Assembly: GCF_017355525.1 (NCBI RefSeq)
Contig: NZ_CP067395.1
Location: 558,001 to 622,000 of the forward strand
Length of the DNA stretch: 64,000 nucleotides
Source: Lysobacter enzymogenes
GTDB lineage: Bacteria > Pseudomonadota > Gammaproteobacteria > Xanthomonadales > Xanthomonadaceae
Direction of reading: 5' to 3'
Both the position numbers and the translations under genes were made by a program. Shown here piece after piece: positions 2,125 to 54,863 of the stretch (position 1 is its first letter; each line of letters starts with the position of its first letter). The notes under the pieces were generated by a model. That model worked only from the letters and a program-made list of their open reading frames with translations, made no database searches and was not told where the DNA came from.

Positions 2125-2391
2125 ATGAGCCAGGAAGTCAAGAACATCATCGAACGCGCGATCCGCGCCGTGGCCGAGCAGCGCGGCCTGAACCTGCCGG
2201 CCTTGCGCGACGACAGCGAGATCGTCGACGAGCTCGGCTTCACCTCGCTGGCGGTGGCGGCTTTGATCGCCAGCCTGGAGGAAGAACTCGGCGTCGATCC
2301 GTTCCAGGAGGAGGACGTGATGATCACCGACGTGCGCACGGTCGGCGACCTGCGCCGGGTCTACGCCGGCTGCCTGGAACGCAGCGTGTGA
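2125..2391 (+). CDS. Free-standing acyl carrier protein (starter-type)
   Basis: 88-residue acidic four-helix carrier. The motif ELGFTSLAVAALIASLEEEL places the phosphopantetheine serine in LGFTSLAVA, which lacks the more usual Asp-Ser pair but is common in ACPs that partner AMP-ligases. A possible ribosome-binding site (CAGGGA) sits upstream of the ATG, 12 bases after the reductase stop. Because PKS1 starts directly with a KS and has no loading ACP, this protein is the best candidate to present the primer to KS1. It differs clearly from the beta-branching donor ACP at 52224. It could also serve in trans elsewhere in the line, since the last module has no ACP. Confidence 0.9.
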   Translation: MSQEVKNIIERAIRAVAEQRGLNLPALRDDSEIVDELGFTSLAVAALIASLEEELGVDPFQEEDVMITDVRTVGDLRRVYAGCLERSV

Positions 2392-2482
2392 GCTGAGCGG
2401 GTTTCGCGGTCGCCGACAGGCGGCCGCTGGTGGTGGACGAGCACGCAGCGCCGGTCGAAGTCTTTCTAGAGATCCAAGACGC

Positions 2483-5400
2483 ATGAACATCAAGGGCGAT
2501 ATCGCGATCATCGGCATGTCCGGCAGGTTTCCGGGCGCCGACGACGTGTCCGGCTTCTGGGACAACCTGCGCGCCGGGCGCGACAGCATCCGCACGCTGT
2601 CCGACCAGGAACTGCGCGCGGCCGGCGTGAGCGAGGCCGAGCTGGCCGATCCGGACTACGTCAAGGCGGCGGCGACGTTGAACGGCGTGGACCGCTTCGA
2701 CCCGGCGTTCTTCCGCATCTCGCCGCGCGAAGCCGAGCTGATCGACCCGCAGATCCGGCTGCTGCTGCAATGCGCCTGGGAAACCCTGGAAGACGCCGGC
2801 CGCGCCGGCAAGGGCCCGCAGAACATCGGCGTGTTCGCCGGCGCCGGCGGCGTGGCGACCAGCTACTTCGCCCAGTACATCAACCTGCACGAGCGCTTCG
2901 ACAAGCTCACCGCCGGCGCGACCCACCTGGGCAACGACAAGGATTTCCTGTCGACCTATCTGTCGTACAAGCTCAACCTGACCGGCCCGAGCATGACCGT
3001 ACAGACGGCGTGCTCGACCTCGCTGGTCGCGTTGCACCAGGCGCGCCTGAGCCTGCTCAGCGGCGAATGCGACATGGCCCTGGCCGGCGGCGTCAGCGTG
3101 CGCGTGCCGCACGGCCACGGCTATCAGTACAAGGACGGCTACATCTTCTCGCGCGGCGGCCGCGTGCGCAGCTTCGACGCCGACGCCGACGGCGTGGTGT
3201 TCGGCAGCGGCCTCGGCCTGGTGCTGATCAAGCGCCTGGAGGACGCGCTGCGCGACGGCGATGCGATCCACGCCCTGGTCAAGGGCAGCGCGATCGGCAA
3301 CGACGGCAAGGGCAAGATGAGCTACGCCGCCAGCAGCGCGAAGGGGCAGATCGCCTGCATCCGCGCCGCGCTGGCGAATGCCGGCGTCGACGCGGCCAGC
3401 ATCGGGCTGGTCGAGACCCACGGCACCGGCACCGCGATGGGCGACCCGGAGGAGGTCAAGGCGCTGGCCGCGGCGTTCAAGGAACACACCGACGCCAAGG
3501 GGTATTGCGCGCTCGGCGCGGTCAAGGCCAACGTCGGCCATCTGGAAGCCGCCGCCGGCGTGGTCGGCCTGATCAAGGCCGCGCTTGCGGTCAAGCACGG
3601 CGCGATCGTGCCGATGGCGCATTACCGCGCGCCGAATCCGCGCATCAAGTTCGACAACAGCCCGTTCTACATCGACCCGGCCGGGCGCGAATGGCGTCAG
3701 GGCAAGGGCCCGCGCCGCGCCGCGGTCAACAGCCTCGGCGTCGGCGGCACCAACGCTTTCGCGATTCTCGAACAGCACGTGCCGGCGCGGCGCGCGCGCG
3801 GCAAGGGCCGGGCGCAGGCGGCGATCGTTCCGCTTTCGGCGCGTACCGACGAGAGCTTGCGCGCGTATGCGCTCAAGCTGGCCGATTTCCTCGACGGGGC
3901 GGGCAGCGGGTTGGAGTTGGGCGACGTCGCCTTCACCCTGCAGGAAGGGCGCGAGGCGATGGAATGCCGCGCTGCGTTCGCGGCTTCGTCGTTGACCGAA
4001 CTCAGCGCAGCGTTGCGCGCGTTCGGCGCCGGCGCGGAACCGCCGCAGGCGCAGGGCGCTGCAGCTTCGTGGTGCGCGCGCGAGGAACTGGACTGGAGCG
4101 CGCATCGCACCGGTCCTGCGCCGCGCCGCGTGCACCTGCCGACGTACGTCTTCGCCCGCGAGCGTTGCTGGATCGATCCCGCGCCCGCCGCGACGCCGGC
4201 CGCGGCGCAGCTGCATCCCTTGCTGCACACCAACACTTCCGACTTGCGCGAACACCGCTACAGCACCGCGCTGCGCGGCGACGAATTCTTCCTGCGCGAC
4301 CACCGGCTGCGCACCGCTCCGGGCGCGACCGACGCGCGCAAGGTGCTGCCGGGCGTGGCTTATCTGGAAATGGCGCGCGCCGCGATGCAGCGCGCGCTGC
4401 CGGCGCCGGCCGAGGGCGGCGGCTGGCGCTTGCGCGACCTGGTCTGGGTGCAGCCGGTGGTGGTCGATGCGCCGCGCGCGATCGACATCGCCTTGCTCGC
4501 CGACGAGGACGACGGCGACACCCTCGCGTTCGAAGTGTTCAGCGACGAGGACACGGTCCATTGCCAGGGCCGCGGCCGCTGGGAGGCGCAGCCGCTTCCG
4601 GCGCCGCTCGATCTCGCCGCCATCGGCGCGGGACTGAGCGAGGGCTGGCAGGCCGACGCGCTGTATCCGGCGTTCGCCGCGATGGGCTTGGACTACGGCC
4701 CGGCGCATCGTCCGATCGTGTCGACCCGGCAAGACCGCGACCGCCTGTTGGCGACGATGCGCCTGCCTTCCGCGGCGCAGGCCGGCGCCGACGCTTACGT
4801 GCTGCATCCGAGCCTGCTCGACGGCGCACTGCAGGCCGCGACCGCATTGATCGCCGATCTGCGCGAGCCGCCGGCGCAGCCGCTGGTGCCGTTCGCGCTC
4901 GACGAGCTGCGGGTGTGGGCGGCATGCGAAACCGACATGGTCGCCTGGGTGCGGCGCGCGCCGGGCGCGCAGCGGCTGGCCAAGTTCGATATCGATCTGT
5001 GCGATGCGCAGGGACGCGTCTGCGCGCAACTGCGCGGCTTCGTCGCGCGCGCGATGGGCAAGGACTCCACGGCCGCGTTGCTCGCGACTCAGGTGTGGGA
5101 AACCGCGCCGGTCGCGACCGGCGCGGCGCCGGCCGGCGACCGCCGCGCGGTGCTGTTCGGGTTCCCGGGCATCGATCCGCAGGCGCTGCCGGGCCGCGCG
5201 TCCGCGCAGCCGCTGCCGCAGGGCGACGCGGCCGGGCGCTACGCGCAACTGGCCGCGACCTGCTTCGAAACCTTGCGCGAGGTGCTGCGCGAACGCCCCA
5301 GCGCACCGGTGCTGGTGCAGTTCGTGTTGCCCGCGCACGCCGAAAACGACGTGTTCGCGGGCTGCTCCGGCCTGCTCAAGACCGCGAGTCTGGAAAACCC

Positions 5401-8400
5401 GCTGCTGCGCGCCCAGTTGTTGTTCGTCGCGCCGGACATCGACGCGGCCGGCCTGTCGCGGCTGTTGGACGCCGAAGGCGACGCGCCCGGCGACGTGCTG
5501 GTGCGCCACAGCGGCGGCGAGCGCAGCGCCGCACGCTGGCGTTTGCTGGACGACGACAGCGCCGATGCCGCCGATACCGGCGGCGCGTTCAAGGACGACG
5601 GGGTCTACCTGATCACCGGCGGCCTCGGCGGCCTCGGCGCATTGTTCGCGCGCGAGATCCTGTCCGCGACCACCCGCGCGACGGTGCTGCTGAGCGGCCG
5701 CGCCAGCGCGGACGAGATAGCGACGGCGCCGGAAAAGCAGGCGCTGCTGGCGTCGCTGCGCGCGGCCGGCGGCCGCGTCGAATACCGCCAGATCGACTTG
5801 AGCGATGCCGCGAAGGTGCAAGAGGCGATCGACGCCATCGTGCGCGAACACGGCCGCCTCAACGGCATCCTGCACAGCGCCGGCATGGTCGCCGACGAGT
5901 TCATCCTCAAGAAATCGCCCGAGACCTTCGCTGCGGTGCTGGCGCCCAAGGTCGCCGGCAGCGCGCATCTGGACGCGGCCACGCGCGAGCTGGACCTGGA
6001 TTTCATCGCCTTGTTCTCCTCGCTCGGTTCGGCCCTGGGCAACCTCGGTCAGGCCGATTACGCGGCCGCCAACGGCTTCCTCGACGAGTTCGCCGCGCAG
6101 CGCAACGCATTGGCCGCAGCCGGGCAGCGGCGCGGCCGCAGCGTGGCGATCCGCTGGCCGCTGTGGCGCGAAGGCGGCATGCAGCTGAGCGGCGACGATC
6201 TCGAACGTCTGCACGAGGCCACCGGCATCCGGCCGATGCGCACGCGCACCGGGCTGGCGATGTTCTATCGCAGCCTAGCGGGGCAGCACGATCAGACCGT
6301 GGTCATGGAAGGCGATCCGGCGCGCATGCGCATCGCCCTGGGGCTGGAGCGCGCGGCCGCCGCGCCGGCGCCGGCCGCGGCGACCGCGGCGAACCCCGTC
6401 GCCACGGGCGATCTGCGCGAACGCACCGAGGACTACCTGCGCCGGCAATTGTCGGCCCTGCTCAAGCTGCCGGCGGGAAAAGTCGATCCGGCCGCGCCGC
6501 TGGAGGACTACGGGATCGATTCGATCCTGGCGCTGGACCTGACCAAGGCGCTCGAACGCAGCTTCGGTCCGCTGGCCAAGACCCTGTTCTTCGAATACCT
6601 GAGCCTGCGCGAACTGGCCGGCTATTTCGTCGCCGCCCACGCGCCGCGCTTGCACGAGCTGTTCGCCGATACCGGCGCCGCCGTCGCCGCGCCCGCGCCA
6701 TCGCAGGCGGCCGCGGCCATCGACGACGGCGGCACCGGCCGCCGTCGCCTGCGCGCCGCCGCCGCGCGCCGCGCCGAACCCGCGCGCAGTTTCGCCGGCG
6801 AACCCATCGCCATCGTCGGCCTCAGCGGCCGCTATCCGCAGGCGCGCGACATCGACGCCTACTGGGAGGTGCTGCGCGAAGGCCGCGACTGCATCGTCGA
6901 AATCCCGCCGGAGCGCTGGGACTGGCGCGAGTACTACAGCGAAGACCGCAGCCAGCCCGGCCGCCACTACAGCAAGTGGGGCGGCTTCATCGAAGGCGTG
7001 GACGAGTTCGACGCGCGCTTCTTCAACATCTCGCCGCGCGAGGCCGACACCATCGACCCGCAGGAGCGGCTGTTCCTGCAGCAGGCGTGGATGGCGATCG
7101 AAGACGCCGGCTACACCCGCCAATCCCTGCAGACGCCGGGCCCCGGCGGCCTGCCGGCGCCGGTCGGCGTTTACGCCGGCGTGATGTACGGCGAGTATCA
7201 GTTGCTCGGCGCCGAAGCGAGTCTGCTCGGCCAGCCGATGGGCTTCGCCAGCAATCCGGCCAGCATCGCCAACCGCGTGTCGTACGCGCTGAACCTGCAC
7301 GGCCCGAGCATGGTGGTCGATACCATGTGCTCGTCGTCGCTGACCGCGATCCACGTCGCCTGCCAGGACCTCAAGCTCGGGCGCACCTCGCTGGCCATCG
7401 CCGGCGGCGTCAACGTCACCATTCACCCCAACAAGTACCTGATGCTCAGCGCCGGGCAGTTCATCTCCGGCGACGGCCATTGCCAGAGCTTCGGCGAAGG
7501 CGGCGACGGCTACATTCCGGGCGAGGGCGTCGGCGCGGTGGTGCTCAAGCGCCTGTCCGACGCGCAACGCGACGGCGACCGCATCTACGGCGTGATCCGC
7601 GGCAGCGCGCTGAGTCATGGCGGCAAGACCAACGGCTACACCGTGCCGAACCCGCAGGCGCAGGCTGGCGCGATCCGCCAGGCATTGATCGATGCGGGCG
7701 TCGACGCGCGCCAGGTCAGCTACCTGGAAGCGCACGGCACCGGCACCAAGCTCGGCGATCCGATCGAGATCGCCGCGCTGACCAAGGTGTTCCGCGAGCA
7801 CACCGACGCCAGCGGCTACTGCCTGATCGGCTCGGCCAAGTCCAACATCGGCCATTGCGAAGCCGCGGCCGGCATCGCCGGCCTGACCAAGGTGCTGTTG
7901 CAGCTCAAGCACCGCGCGATCGTGCCGTCGCTGCATTCGGCCCGGCTCAATCCGCATATCGACTTCGACGCCACGCCGTTCGTGGTCAACCAGCGCCTGC
8001 GCGCCTGGGACGCGCCGCGCGTGGACGGCCGCGAGCTGCCGCGCATCGCCGGCATTTCCTCGTTCGGCGCGGGCGGGTCCAACGCGCATCTGCTGATCGA
8101 GGAGTACGTGCCGGCGGCGGCGGTCGAACCGGCGGACGAAGCCTGGATCGTGCCGCTGTCGGCGCGCACCGCCGAGCAACTGCACGAGAAGGCGCGCGAT
8201 CTGCTCGCCTGGTTGCGCGCGGACGCGGGCGCGGCGTCGCTGGCTTCGATCGCGCAGACCTTGCAGGTCGGGCGCGAGGCGATGAACGAGCGCTTGGGCG
8301 TGCTGGCGGCGTCGACCGAGGCGTTGAGCGCAGCCTTGCAGGCTTTCGTCGAAGGCCGCGAGCAGGCCGATGTCCGCCGCGGACAAGCGCGCAGCGCGTC

Positions 8401-11400
8401 GCCGGCACCGTCTGCCGCGGACATGGAAGCCTGGACCGCCGCGCGCGATCTGGCTTCGCTGCTGGCCGCGTGGGTCGACGGGCAGGCGCTGGACTGGGCG
8501 CGTTTGTATCCGCAAGCGCAGCCGCGCCTGAGCCTGCCGGCGTATCCGTTCGCGCGCCAGCGGCATTGGATCGACGTGCGCGCCGGCGCGCGCGGCGCGG
8601 CCAAGCGCGCCGCGGCCTTGCATCCGCTGCTGCACCGCAACGGCAGCGATCTGCTGCAACACAGCTATACCGCCGACTTCGCCGGCGACGAGTGGTTCCT
8701 CGACGGCGAGCCCGGCGCGCGCAGCCTGTCCGCGGCGGCGTGCCTGGAAATGGCGCGCGCCGCGTTCGCCGCGGCGCTGCCGGAGCAGGGCGAGCCGGGC
8801 GTGCTGGAACTGCGCGAGATCGCCTGGGCGCGGCCCGGCGTCGCCGCCGCGGGCCAGACCCTGGCGATTTCGCTGTTCGACCGCCGCGGCGATGCATTGC
8901 GCTTCGAGATTCACGCGGCCGGAGCGGACGCGGCGGTGCATTGCCAAGGCTTGGTGGAACGCGTGCGTGCGGCGATCGCGCCGCGCGTGGATGTCCAGAC
9001 GATCCGCCGCGATGCGCCTGCGACGCTGATCCGCTTGCAGCTGGCGGCGGAGCAGGGCGACGAACGCGGCGCTTACGGCCTGCATCCGGCGCTGGCGCAG
9101 GCGGCCTTGTCTGCCGCCGGCGCAGGGCTGGCGCCGGTCGCCGTGGCCGTGGCGCGGATCGCGTCCGGCGTCGGCCAGCCGGTCTGGGCGTGGGTGCGGC
9201 CTGCGGTTGGCGGCGGTTTCGATATCGATCTGTGCGACGAAAGCGGCGCGGTGAGCGCGCAGTTGCACGGCGTACGTTTTGCGCTGGCCGCTGCGCCGGT
9301 GCGCAGCGCGCCGGCGACGCATTCGGATCCGGCCGCCGCGGCGACGCAGGCCGCGTTGCCGCCGGCGATCGCTGCCGGACCGCGGCGCGTGGCCTACGCA
9401 ATGGCGCGCAGCGCAGCGGGCGGGCCGGCTGCGTTCGCGCCGGCGGCGCTGAAGAAGCCCGATTCGGTCGCGCTGGTTGCGCAAGCCGCGGAACTCCCGG
9501 CGCGATCCGCCGCGCAGGCCAAGCCGACCGTGGCGCTGGCGCCGCGCACCGATGCGGACGTGCCGACCGCCGTCGCGCCGGGAGCCGAATCGGCCGACGA
9601 CGTGCAAGTGTTCGATCACGGGAATGGCGTGTTCGCGATCCGGATCGAATCGAACGAGGGCACCGAGACGTTGACGCCGCAGCGCATCGAGCGGCTGCTC
9701 GCGGCGCTGCGCGCGGTCGAAGCGCTGCCGGCCGCGCGCGCGCTGGTGTTGTGCGGCACCTCCGAGCGGTTCCTGGCCGGCGGCCGCGACGCGCACAACG
9801 CGGCGACCGCGCAGGGCTTGTACGGCGCCATCGCCGGGTTCGCCTATCCGGTGATCGCCGCGGTGCGCGGCGCGGCGCGCGGCGCCGGCTTCCTCGCCGC
9901 GGCGCTGTGCGACTTCATGCTGGTCGGCGAAACCGCGCAGTGCGGGTTCACCGACGCGGACGGCGGCCTGCTGCCGGCCGCGGCCGAATCGTTCCTGCGC
10001 CAGCGCTTCGGTACCGCCCGCGCCGACGATCTGCTGTATCTCGACCGCGTCGCCAGCGGCGCCGACTTGCGCGCCAAGGGCTGGCGCTGCCCGGTGGCGC
10101 CGTGCGATGAAATCGAAGCGCGCGCGTTCGCGCTGGCCGCCGAGCTGGCGGCCAAGCCGCAGGAGTCGTTGCGGCTGCTCAAGCGCCACCTCGCGCGCGA
10201 GTTGATCGACGCGGCTGCCGGCATCGCCGGATCGCCGCCGGCGGTTGCGGTCGCGGCGCCGGCGATGCCGCAGTTCGCGCTGGCTTCGCCGCATCTGGCG
10301 CTGCGCGCGGCTGCCCCGGGTGTCGCCATCGCGACCTTGCGCGCCGGCGACAACGGATTCGACCCAGACGCCACGCTCGCCGCGCTGCACGACCTGGCCG
10401 CGGAACTCGCCGCTTCGGCGCAGTGCCGCAGCCTGGTGTTGACCAGCGAACATCCCGGTTTCCTGCCTTTGGCCGCGGACCAGGGCGACCTCGCGCTGGC
10501 CTGGCGCCAGGCCGTGAGCGCGCTGCCGTGCGCGGTGACGACCGTGCTCGACGGCGACGCCTCCGCCCTCGGCTGGTTCGCCGCGTGGTGCGGCGAGGTC
10601 TGCGTGCATCGGGCCGATGCGCGTTATTCGGCGCTGGGTCTGTCCGGCGCAGGCGCGTTGGCCGAGGCGGCCGCGAATGCGCTGTCGCGTCATCTCGACG
10701 CCGATGAGGCCGCGCAGGTTCTGCTCGGCATCGACTGCGGCGGCGACGAACTGCGCAGCCGTTTCGGCGCGTTGCGCGTGGCCGAGGCCGGTCGGGAGCT
10801 GGACTCGGCATTGCGCGCGGCCGAGGCGCTGGCGGCGTTGCCCGCCGAGACGCTGGTCGAGTGGAAGCGCGTCGCGGCCGCCAGCGCGGATGCGCCTTCC
10901 GAAGCCGATGAGTTCCCCGCGGCGGCGACGGCGCTGGTGCCCGGTCCGGTGGCGCTGGATTCGGCCGTGGTTTCCGCGACCGCGCACGCCGACGGCGTGC
11001 TCGAACTGCGGCTCGCCGACCGCGACGCGCGCAACCTGTTCTCCGACGCGTTCTCGCACGGGCTGCGCGCGGCGTTCGCCCACGTCGAGGCCAGCGGCGC
11101 GTACAAGGCCGTGGTCGTGACCGGCTACGACAACTACTTCTCCACCGGCGGCACCCGCGACACGCTGCTGGCGATCCACCAGGGACGGGCGAAATTCACC
11201 GACAACCTGCTGTTCCGCCTGCCGCTGGACTGCGCGGTGCCGGTGGTCGCGGCGATCCAGGGCCACGCCATCGGCGCCGGCTGGGCGCTCGGCATGTTCG
11301 CCGATGTGGCGATCCTGGCCGAAGAAAGCCATTACGCCAGCCCGTACATGGGCTACGGCTTCACTCCGGGCGCGGGCGCCACGCTGGCGTTCCCGCACGC

Positions 11401-14400
11401 GGTCGGCCACGATCTGGCCCGCGAAACCCTGCTGAGCGCACGCGAGTACACCGGCGCCGATCTCGCCGCGCGCGGCTTGCGCCAGCAGGTGCTGCCGCGC
11501 GAACGCGTGTTCGCCGCGGCGCTGACGACGGCGCAGGCGATCGCGCGCAACCCGCGCGAGCGCCTGCTCGCGCTGAAGCGGCGGCGCATGCGCGCGTTGC
11601 AGCCGCGGCTCGAGGAGACGCTGGCACGCGAGCTGGCGATGCACGAGATCACCTTCGTCGGCCAGGCCGAAACCCTGGCGCGGATCGAAGGCCGGTTCGG
11701 CGCGGAATCGGCCGGCGCAGCGTCAGCCAGCGCCGCCGTCGCCGTCGCGGCGCGGATCGACTTGCCCGCGGTCAGCGCGCGCCTGCGCCAGATGCTGTCG
11801 CATGAGTTGCGTCTGGCCGAGCACGAAATCGGCGCGGACGAACTGTTCGTCGATCTCGGCCTGGATTCGATCACCGGCGTGACCTGGGTGCGGCGGATCA
11901 ACGAGGCCTACGGCACCGCGATCGAGGCGATCAAGGTCTACAGCTACCCGACCCTGGCCAAGCTCGCGCAGCATGTGCTCGACGAAGCCGGCGCACACGC
12001 GCCGGTGGCCGATGCGGCCTTCGCCGCGACTGCGGCCGCAGCGGCCGCGCCGGCCGCAGCCGCAACCGCAGCGCCCGCGCTCGACGGCGTCGTCGCGCGC
12101 CTGCGCGCCACGCTCGCGCACGAGCTGCGCCTGGGCGAGAACGAGATCGGCGCGGACGAGCTGTTCGTCGACCTGGGCCTGGATTCGATCACCGGCGTGA
12201 CCTGGGTGCGGCGGATCAACGAGGCCTACGGCACCGCGATCGAGGCGATCAAGGTCTACAGCTATCCGACTCTGGGCCAGCTCGCGCGCTACGTCGCGGA
12301 GGAAGCGGCTCAGGTCGCTGCGTCCGCGCCCGCAGCGCCGGCAGCTGAACTCGCCGTACCCGCTATCGCCACGGCGGCCGCGGACGACAGCGTCGTCGTG
12401 CTGCGCTCCTGGCGCAGCCGCGCCTCGACGCCATCCGCGGGCCGCGGGCAGTCCGCCGATCCGCGCATCGCCGTGATCGGCATGACCGGCCGTTTCGCCG
12501 GCGCCGACGATCTGCAGGCGTTCTGGCGCAACCTCGCCGAAGGTCGCGACAGCGTCGGCGAAATCCCGGCCGACCGCTGGGACGTGGACGCCTATTTCCA
12601 GGCCGGCGACATCGCGCCGGGCAAGAGCTACAGCAAGTGGATGGGCGCGCTCGACGGCTACGACCGTTTCGACGCGGCGTTCTTCAACATTTCGCCGCGC
12701 GAGGCGCGCAGCATGGATCCGCAGCAGCGCCTGTTCCTGCAGGCGTGCTGGCACGGCATCGAGCACGCCGGTTACGACCCGCGCGCGCTGGCCGGCAGCC
12801 GCTGCGGCGTGTTCGCCGGCTGCGCGGCCAACGACTACCACCAACTGTCGCAGCGCGAGCGGCTCAGCGGGCAGGGCTTCACCGGCGCGGCGCCGTCGAT
12901 CCTGGCCGCGCGCATCTCCTATTTCCTCGACCTGCACGGGCCCAGCCTGTCGATCGACACCGCCTGTTCGTCCTCGCTGGTCGCCATCGCCAACGCCTGC
13001 GACAGTCTGAGCTCAGGTGCCTGCGATCTGGCCCTGGCCGGCGGCGTCAACGTCATGGCCGGCCCGTCGATGCACATCATGACCGCGCAGGTCGGCATGC
13101 TGTCGCCGCGCGGCCGCTGCTTCGCTTTCGACGAACGCGCCGACGGCATCGCCCCGGGCGAGGGTGTCGGCGTGGTCGTGCTCAAGCGCCTGGCCGATGC
13201 CGAGCGCGACGGCGACTGCATCTATGGCGTGGTCGAAGGCTGGGGCGCGAACCAGGACGGCAAGACCAACGGCATCACCGCGCCCAACGCCGATTCGCAG
13301 GCGCGCTTGCAGCGCGAGGTCTACCGGCGCTTCGGCATCGATCCGGCCGGCATCGGCCTAATCGAAGCGCACGGCACCGGCACCGCGCTGGGCGACCCGA
13401 TCGAGGTCGCCGGGCTCAAGGCCTCGTTCGCCGATTTCACCCAGCGCCGCGATTACTGCGCGCTGGGTTCGGTCAAGAGCAACATCGGTCACTGCCTGGC
13501 CGCGGCCGGCGTGTCCGGCTTCATCAAGGCGCTGCTGGCGCTGCGCCACGCGCAGCTGCCGCCGGCGGCGCAGTTCGAGCGGCTCAATCCGCACATCGCG
13601 CTGCAGGGTTCGCCGTTCTACGTCAACCAGCGCTTGCGCGATTGGCCGAGCGAGGGCGGGGCGCCGCGCCGCGCGGCGATCAACTCGTTCGGATTCAGCG
13701 GCACCAACGCGCATGCGGTGGTGGCCGAGTATGTAGAAGCCGCGGCAGCCGCGGCAGCCGCCGGCGAGGTGTTGCTGCCGTTGTCGGCGCGCACTGCGGC
13801 GCAGTTGCAGCAGCGCGTGCGCGACCTGCTCGCGTTCGTCGCAGCCGATCCGGCGGTCGACCTGCGCCGCGTCGCCCACACCCTGCAGACCGGCCGCGAA
13901 GCGATGAGCGAGCGGCTGGCGGTGGTCGCGGGTTCGGTCGCCGAGTTGCGCGAACGCCTGCACGCCTGGCTGGACCGCAGCGACTCGGGCGCGGCGATCG
14001 CCGGCGTCTGGCGCGGCGATGCGCTGGCCGACAAGAGCACGCTGACCGCGCTGGCGGCCGAGGCCGACTTCCAGGCGATGATCGACAAATGGTTCGCCCA
14101 GCAGGCCTTGCCGCGTCTGGCCGACCTGTGGGCCAAGGGGCTGGCGCTGGATTGGCGGCGTCTGTACCCGGCCGGCGGCGCGCCGCGGCGCATCGGCTTG
14201 CCGGTGTATCCGTTCGCGCGCGAACGTTTCTGGATCGACGCCGAGGCCGACGGGGCCGAGGCGGCGCCGGTTGCGAGCGCCGAGCTGCATCCGCTGCTGC
14301 ACGTCAATATTTCCGACCTGCGCCGTCAGGCCTACCGCACCGTGGTGCGCGGCAACGAGCGCCGCCTGGCCGGCGCGCAGGCGACGCGCCTGCCGGAGCA

Positions 14401-17400
14401 GACCTATCTGGACATGGCCCGCGCCGCGGTCGCCGACGCGCTGCCGGAACTGCGCGGCGACGGCGGCGCTGCGCTGCGCCTGAGCGCGATCGAATGGTCG
14501 CTGCCGGATGGTTTCGCCGATCTGGTCACCACCGTGGCGCCGCTGCGCGGCGGCGCGGTTGCCTTCGAGATCGCCGAGGACGGCGACGACGGACGCGTGC
14601 ATTGCCGCGGCGTAGCCGACGCCGGCGCCGAGATGGCGATGCCGATAGCCGATCCGGCGACGCCGGAACCCATCGGCGCGGCGCAACCGCCGGCTGCCAC
14701 CGCTGCGCCCGCGTCTTCGGCCCTGCCGCTGGAACGCCTGCAACGCGAACTGCGCGAGAGCCTGGCCGAAGCGCTGTTGATGCAGGCGTCCGACGTCAAC
14801 CTCGACAAGTCCTTCACCGAACTCGGCCTGGACTCGATCCTCGGGGTCGAATGGGTCAAGCAGATCAACCGCAGCTACGGCACTGAGCTGGCGGCGACGC
14901 GGGTCTACGACTACCCGAGCGTGCGCGCGCTGGCGGCGTACCTGCACACGCAGGTGCGCGGCGACGAGACCACGGTTGCGGCCGCGCCGGTCGCGGCGGC
15001 GCCCTTCGCGGCGGCGCAAGCGCCGGCGCCGAGCGGTTCGGTCTCGCGCGAAGCCGTACAGGCCGAACTGCGCGCCAGCCTCGCCGAAGCGCTGCTGATG
15101 CAGGTGTCCGACGTCAATATCGACAAGTCGTTCACCGAACTCGGCCTGGATTCGATCCTCGGTGTCGAGTGGGTCAAGCAGATCAACCGCAGCTTTGGCA
15201 CCGAGCTGGCGGCGACGCGGGTCTACGACTACCCGAGCGTGCGCGCGCTGGCGGCGTATCTGCATCCGCAGGTGCGCGGGGACGAGGCGGAGGTCGCGGC
15301 GCCGCAGGCGGCGGCCGTTGCGGCCGCACCGGCCGCGCCGACTGCGGCTGCGCGCGTGTCGGTATCGCGCGAGGCCATCCAGGCCGAACTGCGCGCCAGC
15401 CTCGCCGAAGCGCTGCTGATGCAGGTGTCGGACGTCAATCTCGACAAGTCCTTCACCGAACTCGGCCTGGATTCGATCCTCGGGGTCGAATGGGTCAAGC
15501 AGATCAACCGTCGCTACGGCACCGAATTGGCGGCGACGCGGGTCTACGACTACCCGAGCGTGCGCGCGCTGGCGGCGTACCTGCATCCGCAGGTGCACGC
15601 CGACGCCGAGGCGGTCGCTCCTGCCGTCGTCGCGGCTCCGGTTCTTGTACCGGCGCAACCCGCCCCGATGCCCGCGCCGCGCGCGGCGGCCGCCCGCGCC
15701 ACGAGCAGCCACCGCTTCGCTCCGCGCGGCGGCTTCGCCTTCGCGCCCAAGTACGACGCGCGCTCCCGCCAGCTGTACTTCTACAGCCCGCACGCCGAAG
15801 GCGATTTCGACGCCGACGGCGAGTTCGCCGTGGTCTACCGCCTGAGCCCCGACGACAACGTCTGCCTGCGCGAGCACGTCGTGTTCGGCGAACACCTGCT
15901 GCCGACCGACGCCTACATCGACCTGGTGCTCAGCGCCTGCCGCAGCTATTTCGACGCGCCGTCGCCGAGCCTGCGCCAGATCGCCATCGCCAACCCCTTG
16001 CTCGGCCGGCCCGGCGAGCAGCGCCCGGTGCGGGTGGTGTTCCGCCGCAGCGGCGAGGAACTGCAGTTCTTCGTCAAGTCGCGCAGCGGCGCCGACGGCG
16101 ACGACGAAACCTTGCACATGCAGGGCTTCCTGACCGCCGCCGCCGCGCCCGCCGCGCCGCGCTTCGATACGGTCGACGCCGACGCCGGCCTGGAACGCGC
16201 GCAGATCCCGACCAACGCCGGCCGCTATTACGCGCCGCTGGAACGTTTGCAGTTCGGCGCGTCCGCGGCGGTCGGCACGGTCCGGCCGCGCGCGCACGAG
16301 TTCGCCTTCGCCGCCGATCCGTTCGCGCTCTACGGCGGGCTGTGCACCGTCATCAACTACGCCGCGCATCTGGCCGCGCGCCATTACGGCGCCAGCGACG
16401 ACCAGTTCCTGCCGCACCGGATCGGCCGGATCGACCTCGTCGGCGAACTCGGCGGCCGCGACTATCGCTGCCTGGCCGAGCTGACCGCGATGCAGCCGGA
16501 CGCGTTCGAGTTCCGCTTCAGCCTCGTCGACGGCGACGGCCATACCGCGCTGACGGTCGAGGACATCGTGCTGCGCCGGGTCGCCGCCGCCGGCCTGCGC
16601 CGGAACGCGCAAGCCGCGCCGCGCGCAATATCGGTCGTCAAGCCGCGCGCAACGGGCGGCGAGGGCGACCAGGTCGCGATCATCGGCATGTCCTGCCGCT
16701 ATCCGATGAGCGAGAACCTCGACGCGTTCTGGGACAACCTGCTGCACGGCCGCGACTGCGTCGGCGAAGTGCCGCCGGGCCGCTGGTTCGGCGACGCCGA
16801 CTGGTTCCACAGCGATCCGCGCCACCCGCACACCTCGTACTCGAAGTGGGCCGGCCTGCTCGACCGCATCGACGCCTTCGACCCGCTGTTCTTCGGCATC
16901 TCGCCGGCCGAGGCCGAGCTGATCGATCCGCAGCAGCGGATCTTCCTCGAGGAATGCTGGAAGGCGATCGAACACGCCGGCTACGCGCCCGGCGCGCTGT
17001 CCGGCGAGGCCTGCGGCGTCTACGTCGGCTGCGCCGCCGGCGACTACGCCCGGGTGTTGAACGGCGCGGGCCAGGACACCGCCGGCGCGGCGTTCATGGG
17101 CACCTCCAGCGCGATCCTCGCCGCGCGCATCGCGTACTACCTCAACCTCAAGGGCCCGGCGCTGGCGATCGACACCGCCTGTTCGTCTTCGCTGGTGGCG
17201 GTGCATCTGGCCTGCGACAGCATCCGCAACGGCGAGAACCGCATGGCCCTGGTCGGCGGCATCAATCTGCTGACCACGCCGATCGGCCACATCCTGACCT
17301 CGCAGGTCGGCATGCCGTCGCGCGACGGCCGCTGCGCCGCGTTCGACGCCTCCGCCAACGGCATCGTGTTCTCCGAAGGCTGCGGCGTGCTGCTGCTGAA

Positions 17401-19450: not shown

Positions 19451-34861
<15,411 letters not shown>

Positions 34862-48599: not shown

Positions 48600-49333
48600 C
48601 CGCGGGACAGGCCGCCGGAAAGATTCCGCCGCCGCCGTTCGCGTCGGCCGCATCCGCCGTCGCCCAGCCGGAAGTCGTCGTGCTGCACGTCGCCCGCGGC
48701 TTCATGAAGAACAACAACTACCTGGTGATCGACCCGGCGACGCGCCAGGCGGTGCTGGTCGACCCGGCCTGGGAAATCGAGGTCGTCGAAGCCGCGCTGG
48801 CCGAACACCGCGCGCAACTGCGCGGCATCCTGCTGACCCACGCGCATTTCGACCACATCGATCTGGCCCGGCCGCTGTCGCAGAAGTACGCCTGCCCGGT
48901 GTGGATGTCGTGGCGCGAGATCGCCGCGTCGGGCTTCCAGGCCGAACGTTTGATCGGCATCGACGAGACGCCGTGGTCGCTGGGGCGGCTGACGATCGAG
49001 CCGATCTCCACGCCGGGCCATACCCCGGGCTGCGTGTGCTACCTGATCGGCGATCACCTGTTCTGCGGCGACGTTCTGTTCGCCGAAGGCTGCGGCATCT
49101 GCAAGGACGTCGACGCCGCGCACGCGATGTACGACAGCCTGTGCCTGCTCAAGCGGCGCCTGTCCGCGCACACCCGCATCTATCCCGGCCACACCTATGT
49201 GCGGCCGCCGGGCCGCAGTTTCGCCGAAGTGCTCGGCTGCAACCTGTACCTGCAGTTCCGCGATCGCGACAGCTTCGCCGCTTACCGCCTGCGCAAGGGC
49301 CAGAGCGAACGCAAGCTGTTGGATTTCAAATGA
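48596..49333 (+). CDS. Metallo-beta-lactamase-fold hydrolase (PksB/BaeB-like)
   Basis: 245-residue glyoxalase II-type hydrolase. The metal motif HAHFDH is at residues 82-87, followed by TPGHTPGCVCYL, the FCGDVLF aspartate and the late histidine of YPGHTY. The start is ATG 48596, which overlaps the PKS3 stop and gives normal family length; the frame extends upstream only as a shadow of PKS3. Homologues are frequent in trans-AT PKS clusters, and BaeB-type proteins act as thioester hydrolases on acyl carriers. With no thioesterase anywhere in the cluster, translational coupling to PKS3 makes it a candidate for chain release or for clearing stalled chains. It appears to be cytosolic, with no signal peptide. 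Confidence 0.9.
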   Translation: MTAGQAAGKIPPPPFASAASAVAQPEVVVLHVARGFMKNNNYLVIDPATRQAVLVDPAWEIEVVEAALAEHRAQLRGILLTHAHFDHIDLARPLSQKYACPVWMSWREIAASGFQAERLIGIDETPWSLGRLTIEPISTPGHTPGCVCYLIGDHLFCGDVLFAEGCGICKDVDAAHAMYDSLCLLKRRLSAHTRIYPGHTYVRPPGRSFAEVLGCNLYLQFRDRDSFAAYRLRKGQSERKLLDFK

Positions 49334-49393: not shown

Positions 49394-50653
49394 GTGAGCA
49401 TTGTGGGAATCGAAGCGATGAACGTCTTCGCCGGCACCGCCTGCCTGGACGTGACCAAACTGGCCCAGCACCGCGGCCTGGACATGAGCCGGTTCGAGAA
49501 CCTGCTGATGAAGCAGAAGACCGTGGCCATGCCGTACGAAGACCCGGTGACCTTCGCCGTCAACGCGGCCAAGCCGCTGATCGATGCGCTGACGCCGGAG
49601 GAGAAGGACCGCATCGAGATGGTCATCACCTGCACCGAGTCGGCGTTCGACTTCGGCAAGTCGATGAGCACCTACTGCCACGACCTGCTCGGGCTGAACC
49701 GCAACTGCCGTCTGTTCGAGCTCAAGAACGCCTGCTACTCGGGCGTGGCGGGTCTGCAGATGGCGGTCAACTTCGTGCTCTCGCAGACCTCGCCGGGCGG
49801 CAAGGTGCTGGTGCTGGCGACCGACGTGTCGCGCTTCATGGTCGAGGAGGGCGGCGAAGCGCTGTCGGCGGACTGGTCGTTCGCCGAACCCAGCGGCGGC
49901 TCGGGCGCGGTGGCGATGCTGATCAGCGACCGCCCGCACGTATTCCAGATCGACGTCGGCGCCAACGGCTACTACGGCTACGAAGTGATGGACACCTGCC
50001 GGCCGTCGCCGGACACCGACGCCGGCGACACCGACCTGTCGCTGCTGTCGTATCTGAACTGCTGCGAGAACGCGTATCTGGAATACCAGAAGCGAGTGAC
50101 CGGCGCCGACTTCGGCGCGACCTTCGACTATCTGTCGTACCACACCCCGTTCGGCGGCATGGTCAAGGGCGCGCACCGCAACATGATGCGCAAGCTGGTC
50201 AAGGCCAAGCCGGCCGACATCGAGAACGACTTCCAGCGCCGGGTCACGCCGGGCCTGATCCACTGCCAGCGGGTCGGCAACATCATGGGCGCGACCGCCG
50301 CGCTGTCGCTGGCCAGCACCATCGACCACGGCGACTTCGTCGTGCCGCAGCGCATCGGCGTGTTCTCGTACGGCTCGGGTTGCTGCTCGGAATTCTTCAG
50401 CGGCATGGCCCGCCAGGAAGGCCAGCAGCGGTTGCGCGAGATGAAGATCGGCGAGCGCCTGGACAAGCGCTACGAGCTGAGCATGGAGCAGTACGACCGC
50501 CTGCTCGAACGCAGCCGCGAGATGAAGTTCGGCACCCGCAACCTGCAGGCCGACGCCGAGTTCATCCCGCAGGCGCGCGCCGCGCTCGGCGCGCCGACCC
50601 TGTTCCTGAAGCAGATCAAGGAATTCCACCGGGAATACGAATGGGTATCCTGA
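49394..50653 (+). CDS. HMG-CoA synthase homologue for beta-branching
   Basis: 419-residue 3-hydroxy-3-methylglutaryl synthase family enzyme that adds the acetate-derived carbanion from a donor ACP to the beta-keto group of the chain on an acceptor ACP. The catalytic Cys is residue 114 in LKNACYSGVAG, and the His motif is SYHTPFGGM. GTG start at 49394 with a GAGAGG ribosome-binding site; the protein opens MSIVGIEAMNVFAGTACLD, typical of the PKS-associated clade. It lies in the standard cassette HMGS, ECH1, ECH2, ACP, KS0. The natural acceptors are the seven Trp-flagged ACPs of modules 2, 3 and 5. The next gene overlaps its 3' end by 13 bases. Confidence 0.96.
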   Translation: MSIVGIEAMNVFAGTACLDVTKLAQHRGLDMSRFENLLMKQKTVAMPYEDPVTFAVNAAKPLIDALTPEEKDRIEMVITCTESAFDFGKSMSTYCHDLLGLNRNCRLFELKNACYSGVAGLQMAVNFVLSQTSPGGKVLVLATDVSRFMVEEGGEALSADWSFAEPSGGSGAVAMLISDRPHVFQIDVGANGYYGYEVMDTCRPSPDTDAGDTDLSLLSYLNCCENAYLEYQKRVTGADFGATFDYLSYHTPFGGMVKGAHRNMMRKLVKAKPADIENDFQRRVTPGLIHCQRVGNIMGATAALSLASTIDHGDFVVPQRIGVFSYGSGCCSEFFSGMARQEGQQRLREMKIGERLDKRYELSMEQYDRLLERSREMKFGTRNLQADAEFIPQARAALGAPTLFLKQIKEFHREYEWVS

Positions 50654-51423
50654 GCGAGCCTTACCGGACCGTGCAGGTCCGCTTCGACGAGGACCTCTGC
50701 TTCGCGCAGATCCATCGTCCGCAGGCCAACAACGCGATCGACGATACGCTGATCGCCGAGCTGACCCAGGTGTTGGCGCGCTGCGAGGACGCGGCCAAGA
50801 TCGTGGTGCTGGAAGGGCTGCCGGAGGTGTTCTGCTCCGGCGCCGATTTCCAGCAGATCCAGGCGCGCCACGCCAGCGGCGCGGCGCAGGAGCAGGACCC
50901 CGGTCCGCTCTACGATCTGTGGCACCAGCTCGCCGCCGGTCCGTACCTGACGATCGCCCATGTACGCGGGCGCGCGAATGCCGGCGGCATCGGCTTCGTC
51001 GCCGCCTGCGATATGGTGCTCAGCGACGAGAAGGCGACCTACAGCCTGTCGGAACTGCTGTTCGGGCTGATGCCGGCCTGCGTGATGCCGTTCCTGATCC
51101 GGCGCATGGGCTACGCCAAGGCCAACTACCTGACCTTGCTGACCCAGCCGATTGCGGCGCGGCAGGCGCTGGAATGGGGGCTGGTCGACGCGGTCGAGGA
51201 CAACAGCGAGAACCTGCTGCGCAAGCACCTGCTGCGCCTGCGCCGGCTCAACAAGCAGGCGCTGGTGCGCTACAAGCGCTACGCGCTGTCGCTCGACGAC
51301 AGCCTCAGCGCGGCGCGGCCGCTGGCGCTGGCGGCCAATCGCGAGGTGTTCGCCGATCCGCAGAACGTCGAGAAGATCGCGCGCTACGTCAGCACCGGCC
51401 GATTTCCGTGGGAGGCGGCGTGA
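50641..51423 (+). CDS. ECH1 enoyl-CoA hydratase-like dehydratase of the beta-branching cassette
   Basis: 260-residue crotonase-fold protein that should dehydrate the HMG-ACP intermediate to a 3-methylglutaconyl-ACP. It shows CSGADFQQIQ and the oxyanion-hole region RANAGGIGFVAACDMVLSDE. The start at ATG 50641, inside the end of the HMGS gene, gives family length and an N-terminus reading MGILSEPYRTVQVRF; the frame is open further upstream but that portion is shadow of HMGS. The sequence belongs with PksH-type ECH1 rather than ECH2, which follows. Translational coupling to both neighbours is likely. Confidence 0.93.
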   Translation: MGILSEPYRTVQVRFDEDLCFAQIHRPQANNAIDDTLIAELTQVLARCEDAAKIVVLEGLPEVFCSGADFQQIQARHASGAAQEQDPGPLYDLWHQLAAGPYLTIAHVRGRANAGGIGFVAACDMVLSDEKATYSLSELLFGLMPACVMPFLIRRMGYAKANYLTLLTQPIAARQALEWGLVDAVEDNSENLLRKHLLRLRRLNKQALVRYKRYALSLDDSLSAARPLALAANREVFADPQNVEKIARYVSTGRFPWEAA

Positions 51424-52172
51424 TGAGCGAGCCCATCGTCGCGGTCGAGCATCCCGCGCCCGGCGTCGCCCTGGTGCGCATGCAGGACCGCGCGCACAAG
51501 AACACCTTCACCAACGAACTGATCGCCGCGCTGTCGGCCGCGTTCGCCGCCGTCGCCGCCAACCGCGACTGCCGGGTCGTGGTGCTGACCGGCTACGACA
51601 GCTATTTCTCCAGCGGCGGCACCCAGGACGGTTTGCGCGACCTGTTCGACGGCAAGTTCAAGTTCACCGACCGCGATCTGTACAGCCTGTCGTTGAACTG
51701 CCCGGTGCCGGTGATCGCGGCGATGCAGGGCCACGGCATCGGCGGCGGCTTCGTCATGGGCCTGTTCGCCGACATCGTGGTGCTGGCGCGCGAAGCGGTC
51801 TACACGGCGAATTTCATGAAGTACGGATTCACCCCGGGCATGGGCTCGACCTTCATCCTGCCCAAGAAGCTCGGCCTGGCCCTGGCCGAGGAAATGATGC
51901 TGACCGCCGCGACCTACCGCGGCGAGGAACTGCAGCGGCGCGGCGCGCCGTTCGCGGTGCTGCCGCGCGAGCAGGTGCTGGCGCACGCGCTGCAGGTCGC
52001 CGCCGAGCTGGCCGACAAGCCGCGCGCTTCGCTGGTCACGCTCAAGGATCACCTGGTCGGCCCGCTGCGCGAAGCGCTGCCGCGGTTCATCGACCAGGAA
52101 GTGGCGATGCACGAACTGACCTTCCACCAACCGGAAGTCAAGGACCGCATCGAAGCGTTTTTCGGACAGTGA
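51423..52172 (+). CDS. ECH2 crotonase-fold decarboxylase of the beta-branching cassette
   Basis: 249-residue enzyme expected to decarboxylate the 3-methylglutaconyl-ACP to the branched enoyl chain. Diagnostic segments are GYDSYFSSGGTQDGL, MQGHGIGGGFVMGLFAD and YGFTPGMGSTFILP, typical of PksI-type ECH2. The start overlaps the ECH1 stop (TGATG). The third crotonase domain of each PKS cassette is a close homologue, so the cluster holds three ECH2-type active sites, one free and two in line. A simple division would be free ECH2 for module 3 and in-line domains for modules 2 and 5; this is inference. Confidence 0.94.
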   Translation: MSEPIVAVEHPAPGVALVRMQDRAHKNTFTNELIAALSAAFAAVAANRDCRVVVLTGYDSYFSSGGTQDGLRDLFDGKFKFTDRDLYSLSLNCPVPVIAAMQGHGIGGGFVMGLFADIVVLAREAVYTANFMKYGFTPGMGSTFILPKKLGLALAEEMMLTAATYRGEELQRRGAPFAVLPREQVLAHALQVAAELADKPRASLVTLKDHLVGPLREALPRFIDQEVAMHELTFHQPEVKDRIEAFFGQ

Positions 52173-52223: not shown

Positions 52224-52463
52224 ATGAACCAGGACCAAGTGTTCGAAATCATCGTCGGCCACACCAAGGAAGTGCTGCCGAACCTGGAGAAGCACCCGTT
52301 CCAGCAGGACGACTCGCTGCGCGCGCTCGGCGCCAACTCGATCGACCGCGCCGACATCATCATCATGACCCTGGAGTCGCTGTCGTTGAACGTGTCGCTG
52401 ACCGAGATGGCCAAGGCGGAGAACATCGGCCAGCTGGCGGGCATCATCCATGCCAAGATCTGA
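52224..52463 (+). CDS. Donor acyl carrier protein of the beta-branching cassette (AcpK-type)
   Basis: 79 residues with the phosphopantetheine serine in LRALGANSIDRADIIIMTLE. Asn replaces the usual Asp before Ser, as is common in donor ACPs of these cassettes. A strong GGAGAGA ribosome-binding site precedes the ATG. It should carry malonyl, then acetyl after decarboxylation by the neighbouring Ser-KS, and deliver it to the HMG synthase. Its stop lies inside the following KS gene (14-base overlap). Confidence 0.94.
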   Translation: MNQDQVFEIIVGHTKEVLPNLEKHPFQQDDSLRALGANSIDRADIIIMTLESLSLNVSLTEMAKAENIGQLAGIIHAKI

Positions 52464-53691
52464 GCCGCCGGCCGTTCTGGCCACCGGCGTCGGCGTGGTG
52501 TCGGCCATCGGCCAGGGGCGCGCGGCGTTCGCCGACGCCCTGCTCGAAGGCAGGCACCGCTTCGACGCGATGCGCCGGCCCGGACGGCAGCGGCCGCAGG
52601 ACGACGGCGCGCCGGCGTTCCTCGGCGCCGAGATCGAACAGCTGAACGTGCCCGAGGCGATTCCGCGCGCGTTGTTGCGCACCGCGTCGCTGTCGGGGCA
52701 GGCCGCGCTGACCGCGTTGCACGAAGCCTGGCACGACGCGCGCCTGGACGAGGTCGCGCCCGAACGCATCGGCCTGGTCATCGGCGGCTCCAACGTGCAG
52801 CAGCGCGAGCTGACCCAGGTCCACGACGCGTACCGCGAGCGGGTCGCGTTCCTGCGCCCGACCTATGCGATGTCGTTCATGGACAGCGATCTGTGCGGGC
52901 TGTGCACCGAAGCCTTTCCGATCCGCGGCTTCGCCCAGACCTTGGGCGGCGCGTCGGCGAGCGGGCAGGCGGCGACGATCCAGGCGATCGAATCGGTGGC
53001 GTCCGGCCGGGTCGACGTGTGCATCGCGATCGGCGCGCTGATGGACCTGTCGTACTGGGAATGCCAGGGGTTCCGCTCGCTCGGCGCGATGGGCTCGGAC
53101 CGCTACGGCGACGATCCCGCGCGCGCCTGCCGCCCGTTCGACCGCGACCGCGACGGTTTCATCTACGGCGAGTCCTGCGCGGCGATCGTGATCGAGCGCG
53201 CCGACGCCTGCGGCCGCGCCGGCGTCGCGCCGTACGCGCGCATCGCCGGCTGGGCGATGGCGATGGACGGCAACCGTAATCCGAATCCTTCCTTGCAGGG
53301 CGAGACCGCCGCGATCCGCGGCGCGCTCGACCGCGCCGGCTGGTCGGCGCGCGAGATCGACTACGTGAATCCGCACGGCACCGGCTCGGCGATCGGCGAC
53401 GTCACCGAACTGCAGGCGCTGCGCGACTGCGGGCTCGACCATGCCTGGATCAACGCGACCAAGTCGGTGGTCGGCCACGGCCTCAGCGCCGCCGGCGCGA
53501 CCGAGCTGGCGGCGATCCTGTTGCAGATGCGCGCCGGCCGCCTGCATCCGACCCGCAACCTCGACGACCCGATCGAACCCGGCTTCAACTGGGTGCGCGA
53601 ACGCGCGGTGCCGCACGCCATCGCCAACGCGATCAACCTCAGCATGGGCTTCGGCGGCATCAACACCGCGATCTGCTTGAGCAAGTGCTAA
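52450..53691 (+). CDS. Decarboxylating ketosynthase homologue (active Cys replaced by Ser)
   Basis: 413-residue FabF-like KS. At the nucleophile position the sequence reads GGASASGQAA, with Ser169 in place of Cys, while the two histidine motifs NPHGTGS and VGHGLSAAG are kept. This is the hallmark of the KS in HMG-synthase cassettes that converts malonyl-ACP to acetyl-ACP without condensing. The start overlaps the donor ACP gene, which supports physical partnership. Confidence 0.95.
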   Translation: MPRSEPPAVLATGVGVVSAIGQGRAAFADALLEGRHRFDAMRRPGRQRPQDDGAPAFLGAEIEQLNVPEAIPRALLRTASLSGQAALTALHEAWHDARLDEVAPERIGLVIGGSNVQQRELTQVHDAYRERVAFLRPTYAMSFMDSDLCGLCTEAFPIRGFAQTLGGASASGQAATIQAIESVASGRVDVCIAIGALMDLSYWECQGFRSLGAMGSDRYGDDPARACRPFDRDRDGFIYGESCAAIVIERADACGRAGVAPYARIAGWAMAMDGNRNPNPSLQGETAAIRGALDRAGWSAREIDYVNPHGTGSAIGDVTELQALRDCGLDHAWINATKSVVGHGLSAAGATELAAILLQMRAGRLHPTRNLDDPIEPGFNWVRERAVPHAIANAINLSMGFGGINTAICLSKC

Positions 53692-53720
53692 TCAACGAAC
53701 GAATCAGTGGAGGCACGACC

Positions 53721-54863
53721 ATGAAGACCTACATGTTCCCCGGGCAAGGCTCGCAATCCAAGGGCATGGGCGAGGCCCTGTTCGAACGCTTCAAAGAGCG
53801 CACCGCGCAGGCCGACGAGGTGCTCGGCTATTCGATCCGCGAGCTGTGCGTGGACGACCCGCGCGGCGAACTCGGCAATACCCGCTTCACCCAGCCGGCG
53901 CTGTACGTGGTCAACGCGCTGAGTTACTACGCCCGGGTCGAAGACAGCGGCGAAACCCCGGACTTCGTCGCCGGCCACAGCCTCGGCGAGTTCGACGCGC
54001 TGCTGGCGGCGGGCTGCTTCGATTTCCAGACCGGCCTGAAGCTGGTCAAGAAGCGCGGCGAGCTGATGAGCCAGGTTTCCGGCGGCGCGATGGCGGCGGT
54101 GATGAACGCCAGCCGCGAGGAGATCGAGCGCATCCTCGCCGACAATGGTCTGGGCAATATCGATCTGGCCAACTACAACACTCCGTCGCAGATCGTGATC
54201 TCCGGCGACGCCGACGAGATCGCCAAGGCCGAACCGCTGCTGCGTCAGGGCCGGGTGCGATTCTATCCGCTGGCCACCAGCGGCGCCTTCCATTCGCGCT
54301 TCATGCGCGGCTCGAAGGACAAGTTCGCTAAGTTCCTCAAGGGCTTCAAGTTCGACGAACCGAAGGTACCGGTGATCGCCAACGTCACCGCGCGCGAGTA
54401 CGAAGGCAAGAAGATCGCCGAGACTCTTGCCAACCAGATCGCCAGCACCGTGCGCTGGTCCGACAGCGTGCAGTACCTGCTGGCGCTGGCGGCCGAGCGC
54501 GGCCAGGAGATGGAGTTCGTCGAGCTCGGCCACGGCGACGTGCTGACCCGCCTGGTGCACACCATCAAGCTGCAGACCCAGCCCGCCGCCGAGGCGCCGG
54601 CGGCCGCGCCGGCGCAGCCCGTTGCCGCATCTGCGCCCGCGCCGGCCGCGCAAAGCGCCGCGCCCGCCAGCGGCAGCGCCGCGGACAAGGTCGCGGCCTG
54701 GAACCGCCGCCATCCGGTCGGCACCAAGGTCAAGTCGACCGTCAGCGACTACCCGGACCTGGAGACCCGCACCGAAGCGGTGGTGCTGTTCGGCCATCGC
54801 GCCGCGGTCTACATGAAGGGCTACAACGGCTACTTCGATCTGGAAGAGCTGGAAGCGGCCTGA
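53721..54863 (+). CDS. trans-acting malonyl acyltransferase with C-terminal extension
   Basis: 380 residues. AT domain 1 to about 285: FPGQGSQSKGMG, nucleophile Ser87 in GHSLGEF, an Arg in KKRGELM, and SGAFHSRFM, consistent with a malonyl-specific AT that loads the AT-less modules and probably the donor ACP. An Ala/Pro linker (about 290-320) leads to a compact final segment of some 55 residues (WNRRHPVGTKVKSTVSDYP to the end, including VYMKGYNGYFDLEEL) that I cannot assign and that is not part of the AT fold. ATG 53721 was chosen because it has GGAGG upstream and gives the exact AT N-terminus MKTYMFPGQGSQ; the frame is open 36 bases further 5'. Confidence 0.94.
   Translation: MKTYMFPGQGSQSKGMGEALFERFKERTAQADEVLGYSIRELCVDDPRGELGNTRFTQPALYVVNALSYYARVEDSGETPDFVAGHSLGEFDALLAAGCFDFQTGLKLVKKRGELMSQVSGGAMAAVMNASREEIERILADNGLGNIDLANYNTPSQIVISGDADEIAKAEPLLRQGRVRFYPLATSGAFHSRFMRGSKDKFAKFLKGFKFDEPKVPVIANVTAREYEGKKIAETLANQIASTVRWSDSVQYLLALAAERGQEMEFVELGHGDVLTRLVHTIKLQTQPAAEAPAAAPAQPVAASAPAPAAQSAAPASGSAADKVAAWNRRHPVGTKVKSTVSDYPDLETRTEAVVLFGHRAAVYMKGYNGYFDLEELEAA

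Follow-up and report, generated by a model that had tools for sequence, protein, structure and literature searches.

Modules of polyketide synthases (PKSs) are homodimers and free ECH2 is a trimer, and an in-line ECH2 domain poses the question of how a trimeric enzyme is seated inside a dimeric megasynthase. PksI of the bacillaene pathway and the ECH2 of CurF from curacin biosynthesis, the latter belonging to a cis-acyltransferase (cis-AT) PKS, are reported as trimers with three identical protomers and three active sites, unfused to dead copies; PksH (ECH1), a dehydratase of the same cassette, is likewise a crotonase trimer and is described as forming no heterotrimers with PksI (PMC7501309). 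The kalimantacin mECH is an in-cis ECH2 that competes with the trans ECH2 and gives an exo-beta-methylene (PMC12560621); it is described as a single domain, for which a trimer would need other chains. In the lasonolide (LasH/LasO, ECHa-ECHb) and onnamide (OnnB) assembly lines, a dead or truncated crotonase directly precedes a live ECH2 (PMC9600693, PMC6855096), and the lasonolide double is likewise accompanied by Trp-bearing acyl carrier proteins (ACPs) and free branching enzymes (PMC9600693). These doubles have two domains and no counterpart of the middle domain described below; their first domain is called truncated, inactive, or ECH1, and a pseudo-trimer reading is not seen in the available text of those papers. 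Here, we describe a stretch of 64,000 nucleotides from Lysobacter enzymogenes (NZ_CP067395.1, positions 558,001 to 622,000; hereafter the window), in which a trans-AT PKS gene, PKS1, encodes three crotonase domains in a row. The domains are named a, b, and c by position because their profiles converge on one another after iteration.

The window block differs from a truncated-ECH plus ECH2 double in having two dead domains, a and b. An initial annotation of this DNA had considered the arrangement undescribed. No described triple ECH was found in the open papers searched, most subscription papers lying outside that search, and a search for work on domain swaps in crotonases also gave none, but the two-domain form has been published; we read the triple array as a further form of the known in-line ECH modules, of which doubles are already in print.

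Domain content and catalytic residues of the array

The block corresponds to PKS1 residues ~2372-3072 and lies between a degenerate dehydratase (DH) and two Trp-flagged ACPs. That three fused crotonase domains occupy positions 9596-11710 within one PKS1 module, as first annotated, is borne out by profiles, PDB matches, and an AlphaFold2 model, and the domain boundaries (Table 1) agree with those coordinates. A second complete array of the same plan, absent from that annotation, lies in PKS2 at 24122-26161, and the two blocks are 44% identical. The Pfam family ECH_1 matches three stretches in PKS2 and two in PKS1, because b of PKS1 alone gives no ECH_1 match, nor does it give a PDB match at E <= 0.01. 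As a family, b is clearly crotonase: ECH_1 matches 18 of 20 aligned b domains, and the b family profile, aligned from position 18 to position 223 of 228, matches both CurF (E 1.4e-26) and PksI (E 3.4e-24). The window's own a matches PDB crotonases, PksI and CurF included, and the a profile finds CurF (97 bits) and PksI (91 bits) best, the next match reaching 72.5 bits; in contrast to the dehydratase PksH, the profiles of a and b are nearest to ECH2 entries. The c domain of PKS1 matches PksI at E 9e-66 and is homologous over its length, including the catalytic His, and the whole blocks of PKS1 and PKS2 score 373.6 and 411.8 bits against NF005496 (cut-off 215), with the best stretch on c. Collectively, a, b, and c are all crotonase domains, and the family score and catalytic His identify c as a putative ECH2-type beta-branching decarboxylase domain, for which the expected substrate would be 3-methylglutaconyl-ACP. 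Since b can fall below Pfam detection, as in PKS1, triples are likely annotated as doubles.

A protein search with the block, for which the 964 candidates sharing most words were scored, yielded 103 homologues. Iterated domain profiles found 113 arrays in these proteins, comprising 94 triples, 18 doubles, and 1 single, and 85 of the 103 proteins hold at least one triple. With the two arrays of the window, the totals are 115 arrays and 96 triples, in which the gaps span 12-70 residues between a and b (median 30) and 24-50 between b and c. Chance can be excluded because 94 triples occur in other database records, which also removes the uniqueness supposed at first: such triples are common in databases, and the window itself has two. 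In a genome scan, 40 of 49 loci, several of which share a genome, contain one triple or more; the three-domain arrays total 44 (one, at L027, with a cut first domain), all with the His motif. Eight entries of the scan have two domains: four resemble doubles (L039, L042, L043, and L046), three run into the edge of their locus (L005, L014, and L015), and one is unclear (L027). According to record titles, the triple loci include Lysobacter, Massilia, Caballeronia, Chromobacterium, and Steroidobacter, and also Aquimarina, Chitinophaga, Fulvivirga, and metagenome-assembled genomes of Acidobacteriota and Chitinivibrionales. Within the family to which the window belongs, an a-domain match at E <= 1e-25 is present in 14 of 395 genomes and 3 of 54 genera, and each of the 14 genomes, that of the window (G000) included, has two strong a-domain matches. 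Another Lysobacter genome (G263) has array open reading frames (ORFs) of 5513 and 4834 aa, as do the L. enzymogenes loci L032 and L037.

The catalytic His and two oxyanion-loop glycines, counted at Gly65 and Gly107 of the free ECH2, adjacent to the oxyanion residues of PksI, Gly66 and Gly108 (PMC7501309), occur together in 114 of 115 c domains, in none of the 96 a or 96 b domains, and in none of the first domains of the 18 doubles. Taken singly, the first loop glycine is present in 89/96 and the second in 93/96 of the a domains; in b, the second is found in 86/96 and the first in 15/96, having been lost in 81. No a domain has H in the catalytic-His column, and the three b domains that do are weakly aligned there; the C-terminal arm with the catalytic His lies beyond the end of both a and b. 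The position after the counted glycine is Ala in 91/115 c domains, which may be tolerated since the backbone amide serves. For PksI, the H230A variant is reported as crippled and two candidate lysines as dispensable (PMC7501309). The pattern agrees with the early view of an ECH2-like third copy behind two degenerate ones: c would be the live ECH2-like copy, and a and b appear to be homologues rather than active members.

History and selection of the three domains

The three domains form separate lineages. In a tree of 116 of the 327 domain rows, b and c each make up one side of a branch (support 100/100 and 98/92), and two changes are required to account for a (a single one in 39% of bootstrap trees); the first domains of doubles group with a, and free ECH2 with c. 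Free ECH1 falls on the side of a (93/91), but its branch, 3.07 in length, was flagged as unsure by the tool. A c-only tree used 56 of the 116 rows, namely all 18 doubles, 36 of the 96 triples, the single, and free ECH2. One group (100/99) unites all 36 sampled triples with four of the doubles; the remaining 14 doubles branch outside it. Because this tree is rooted on free ECH2, itself one long branch, it suggests that a-c doubles preceded a-b-c triples. The four inner doubles fall in two separate places and have 46-55 residues between a and c, so that b was probably lost at least twice after triples arose.

The ratio of nonsynonymous to synonymous substitution rates (dN/dS) was calculated for 17 pairs, drawn from the 81 with more than 72% identity in c and lying at 85-98.5%; they are not independent of one another. 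In 16 of them, it is 0.16-0.43 for a, 0.17-0.39 for b, and 0.04-0.15 for c; the remaining pair, L014/L033, gives 0.62 (a), 0.62 (b), and 0.16 (c), its dS in a and b being low (0.03-0.04). The a and b domains are under relaxed but purifying selection, and in view of this and of the 94 database triples, decay or artefact is not favoured. The c domains of the two window arrays share 78% DNA identity and belong to separate subclades of the c-only tree; the ketosynthase (KS) DNA of the two array modules (6793-8106 and 21307-22590) is 84-91% identical over the repeat families listed. The KS parts look as if homogenised, and the arrays as if they were old paralogues.

Predicted fold and the pseudo-trimer reading

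AlphaFold2 predicts the whole block as one compact body with three ordered domains and a predicted template modelling score (pTM) of 0.91, which implies a fixed placement of all of them, b included. Among the 50 structural matches listed, 11 solved crotonase chains superpose from the core of a to the C-terminal arm of c at 2.3-3.1 A, as a trimer interface would predict. The block is therefore probably, as initially proposed, a covalent pseudo-trimer of an ECH2-type decarboxylase with one in-cis ECH2 site. In such an arrangement, one PKS chain would supply the whole disc, unlike the homotrimeric free ECH2 such as PksI; a and b would be pseudo-enzymes in place of the two neighbouring protomers, the C-terminal arm of c that bears the catalytic His would be held by a, and the sole active site of the disc would lie on c. 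The array may have grown stepwise, from ECH2 to a-c and then to a-b-c.

Several points weigh against this. Six of the 17 a-to-c matches among the 50 listed fit poorly (3.5-8.0 A), and each structural match gives its first and last aligned residues only. The b-c linker is less sure in the model (block means 64 and 78), and a structure search with a double placed all 50 matches listed on c, so that docking between a and c was not seen there. Moreover, 18 of the 115 arrays are two-domain, and b has apparently disappeared from at least two lineages; some arrays thus do without a third domain, which speaks against a strict need for three. Biochemistry on a triple was not found in the literature searched. 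None of the matches listed (50 each) was a PDB match beyond the length of one crotonase chain, an absence that excludes nothing.

A second explanation gives the dead domains a role as platforms for docking or gating, with a binding the ACP arm, ECH1, or HMGS, or shielding the intermediate from free ECH2, and with trimer mimicry secondary or absent. The retention of the oxyanion-loop glycines in a despite the lack of a catalytic His would fit such a role, as would the survival of lineages without b, and the literature offers some room for it: in-cis control has been discussed for kalimantacin, and the exclusion of ECH2 in the bongkrekic acid pathway is described as not set by ACP specificity (PMC12560621). 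However, b is retained in 96 arrays although its first loop glycine is mostly gone, the predicted packing is rigid, and several solved chains join the core of a to the arm of c. We consider the platform explanation unlikely, though it deserves more weight than those that follow. A further view, in which domain duplication left a and b behind as relics that act as passive spacers en route to loss, draws on their greater degeneracy, the apparent repeated loss of b, and dN/dS values about three times those of c; the values themselves are nonetheless 0.16-0.43 in 16 of 17 pairs, the order is kept and the gaps are small in 96 triples from distant taxa, and both domains are folded with high predicted confidence, which makes this view quite improbable. 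Least probable of all is that a represents a dehydratase (ECH1) joined to ECH2, the label given to the first in-line domain in PKSs of the onnamide/pederin type: the labrenzin paper aligns putative in-line ECH1 domains and describes the motifs as retained in OnnB, NspA, CusA, and PedI (PMC6855096), free ECH1 sits on the a side of the domain tree, albeit on the long branch flagged as unsure, and identity to ECH1 is 22.0% for a compared with 17.1% for b and 18.7% for c, but a averages a higher identity to the free ECH2 of the window (25.2%), its profile prefers the ECH2 entries CurF and PksI with a 20-bit lead, and a separate free ECH1 is present in the window. With profile and identity both nearer ECH2, an ECH1 identity of a is not favoured.

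Returning to the pseudo-trimer, we lean slightly towards a broader reading. The PKS chain would carry its own crotonase disc, so that the homodimeric line needs no third chain; two ECH2 copies would have died in order, the holder of the catalytic arm before the ring filler, and have been retained as pseudo-enzyme subunits across phyla, solving the conflict between two-fold and three-fold symmetry of in-line ECH2. If true, nature would provide a fused trimer with a single live site, a direct one-chain system for the symmetry question that PKS engineers could also adopt as a ready-made cassette for beta-branching in cis, and the 'truncated ECH' that precedes ECH2 in published assembly lines would have an explanation.

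Predicted beta-branching and the surrounding locus

The window has the parts of an in-line ECH module of a trans-AT PKS, with ECH before Trp-flagged tandem ACPs, a complete free cassette (HMGS, ECH1, ECH2, donor ACP, and KS), and a trans AT (Table 1). By motif, the first ACP after the array bears the Trp flag in 87/96 triples and 14/18 doubles, compared with 108/501 of the other ACPs of the same proteins. These counts are raw: among the nine flagless triples, the motif seems to have hit a spurious ACP in P0023, P0031, and P0078, where a Trp ACP follows directly, and in P0087 the second ACP is the flagged one. The window has seven Trp-flagged ACPs, located in the two array modules and in the module after the first. 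The free HMGS would install the branch on the tandem ACPs together with the donor ACP and the cassette KS, the free ECH1 would dehydrate it, and c would decarboxylate it in cis, taking precedence over free ECH2. From these sequence features, we predict that both array modules decarboxylate in cis and that the remaining Trp-flagged module forms its branch with the free ECH2.

Published outcomes differ as to the olefin. Exomethylene formation in the sesbanimide pathway is taken to require tandem ACPs, a cassette, and an in-line ECH domain. The lasonolide authors describe a truncated ECH before ECH2 as common with exo-beta-methylene and also predict an endo-beta-methyl for one such module (PMC9600693), and the palmerolide authors regard an in-line ECH as not predictive of which olefin forms. 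Because of this conflict, the prediction extends to decarboxylation and branch formation and does not choose between exo-methylene and endo-methyl. A known product of a triple-array PKS is possibly cuniculene, and the cuniculene paper may contain a figure of a triple: Aquimarina sp. Aq78 is a reported producer and A. muelleri is reported with a cuniculene cluster (PMC9323603). Aq78 carries a triple (L003) and A. muelleri carries arrays (L027).

Table 1. Coordinates of PKS genes, domains, and cassette genes in the window
Feature	Position	Strand	Remarks
PKS1	2483-19447		One ORF, 5654 aa, contains first crotonase block
PKS2	19451-34861		Giant PKS gene, second of three in a row
PKS3	34950-48599		Giant PKS gene, third of three in a row
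KS, first array module	6800..7936	+	PKS1 residues 1440-1818; Pfam ketoacyl-synt/Ketoacyl-synt_C; active-site motifs
Degenerate DH, PKS1 array module	8618..9127	+	Two PKS_DH_N matches (Pfam) in this region of PKS1
ECH-a, PKS1	9596..10213	+	Crotonase domain without C-terminal arm and its His
ECH-b, PKS1	10295..10897 (start approximate)	+	Most degenerate crotonase domain
ECH-c, PKS1	10952..11698	+	Putative ECH2/PksI-type decarboxylase domain (NF005496), catalytic residues kept
Catalytic His codon of ECH-c	11642..11644	+	PKS1 His3054 in MHEITF; aligns with His of PksI MHE/KTF
ACP 1 after PKS1 array	11780..11977	+	Pfam; Trp flag DSITGVTW
ACP 2 after PKS1 array	12098..12295 (approximate bounds)	+	Repeat family D5; Trp flag by motif
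Three Trp-flagged ACPs, next module	14670..15608	+	Repeat family D6, motif; module without in-line ECH
Degenerate DH start, PKS2 array module	23114..23254	+	Pfam, motif check
ECH-a, PKS2	24122..24721	+	
ECH-b, PKS2	24773..25354 (start approximate)	+	
ECH-c, PKS2	25412..26161	+	Catalytic residues kept; MHERTF at 26102
Tandem Trp-flagged ACPs after PKS2 array	26228..26764	+	Pfam, motif, repeat family D5
HMGS (HMG-CoA-synthase-like), beta-branching cassette	49394..50653	+	
Free ECH1	50641..51423	+	PksH type, NF005498; 260 aa
Free ECH2	51423..52172	+	PksI type, NF005496; 249 aa
Donor ACP	52224..52463	+	NF005502
Cassette ketosynthase	52450..53691	+	NF005490
Trans-acting acyltransferase	53685..54863	+	

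The DH of the PKS1 array module lacks HxxxGxxxxP, and its D-motif region reads LHPALAQAAL in a motif check. In the module that adjoins the first array module, the three Trp-flagged ACPs share 80-86% DNA identity, and beyond them PKS1 continues with a stretch of unclear role until the next KS. Two ORFs in or beside the cluster, at 48559-49377 (272 aa) and 56552-57553 (333 aa), have no Pfam or NCBIfam match, and an UpxY-type NusG-like antiterminator is encoded downstream of the PKS cluster at 57899-58402. Elsewhere in the same genome, three further clustered ECH_1 matches, two of them short, lie at G000:C1:4634455-4635854.

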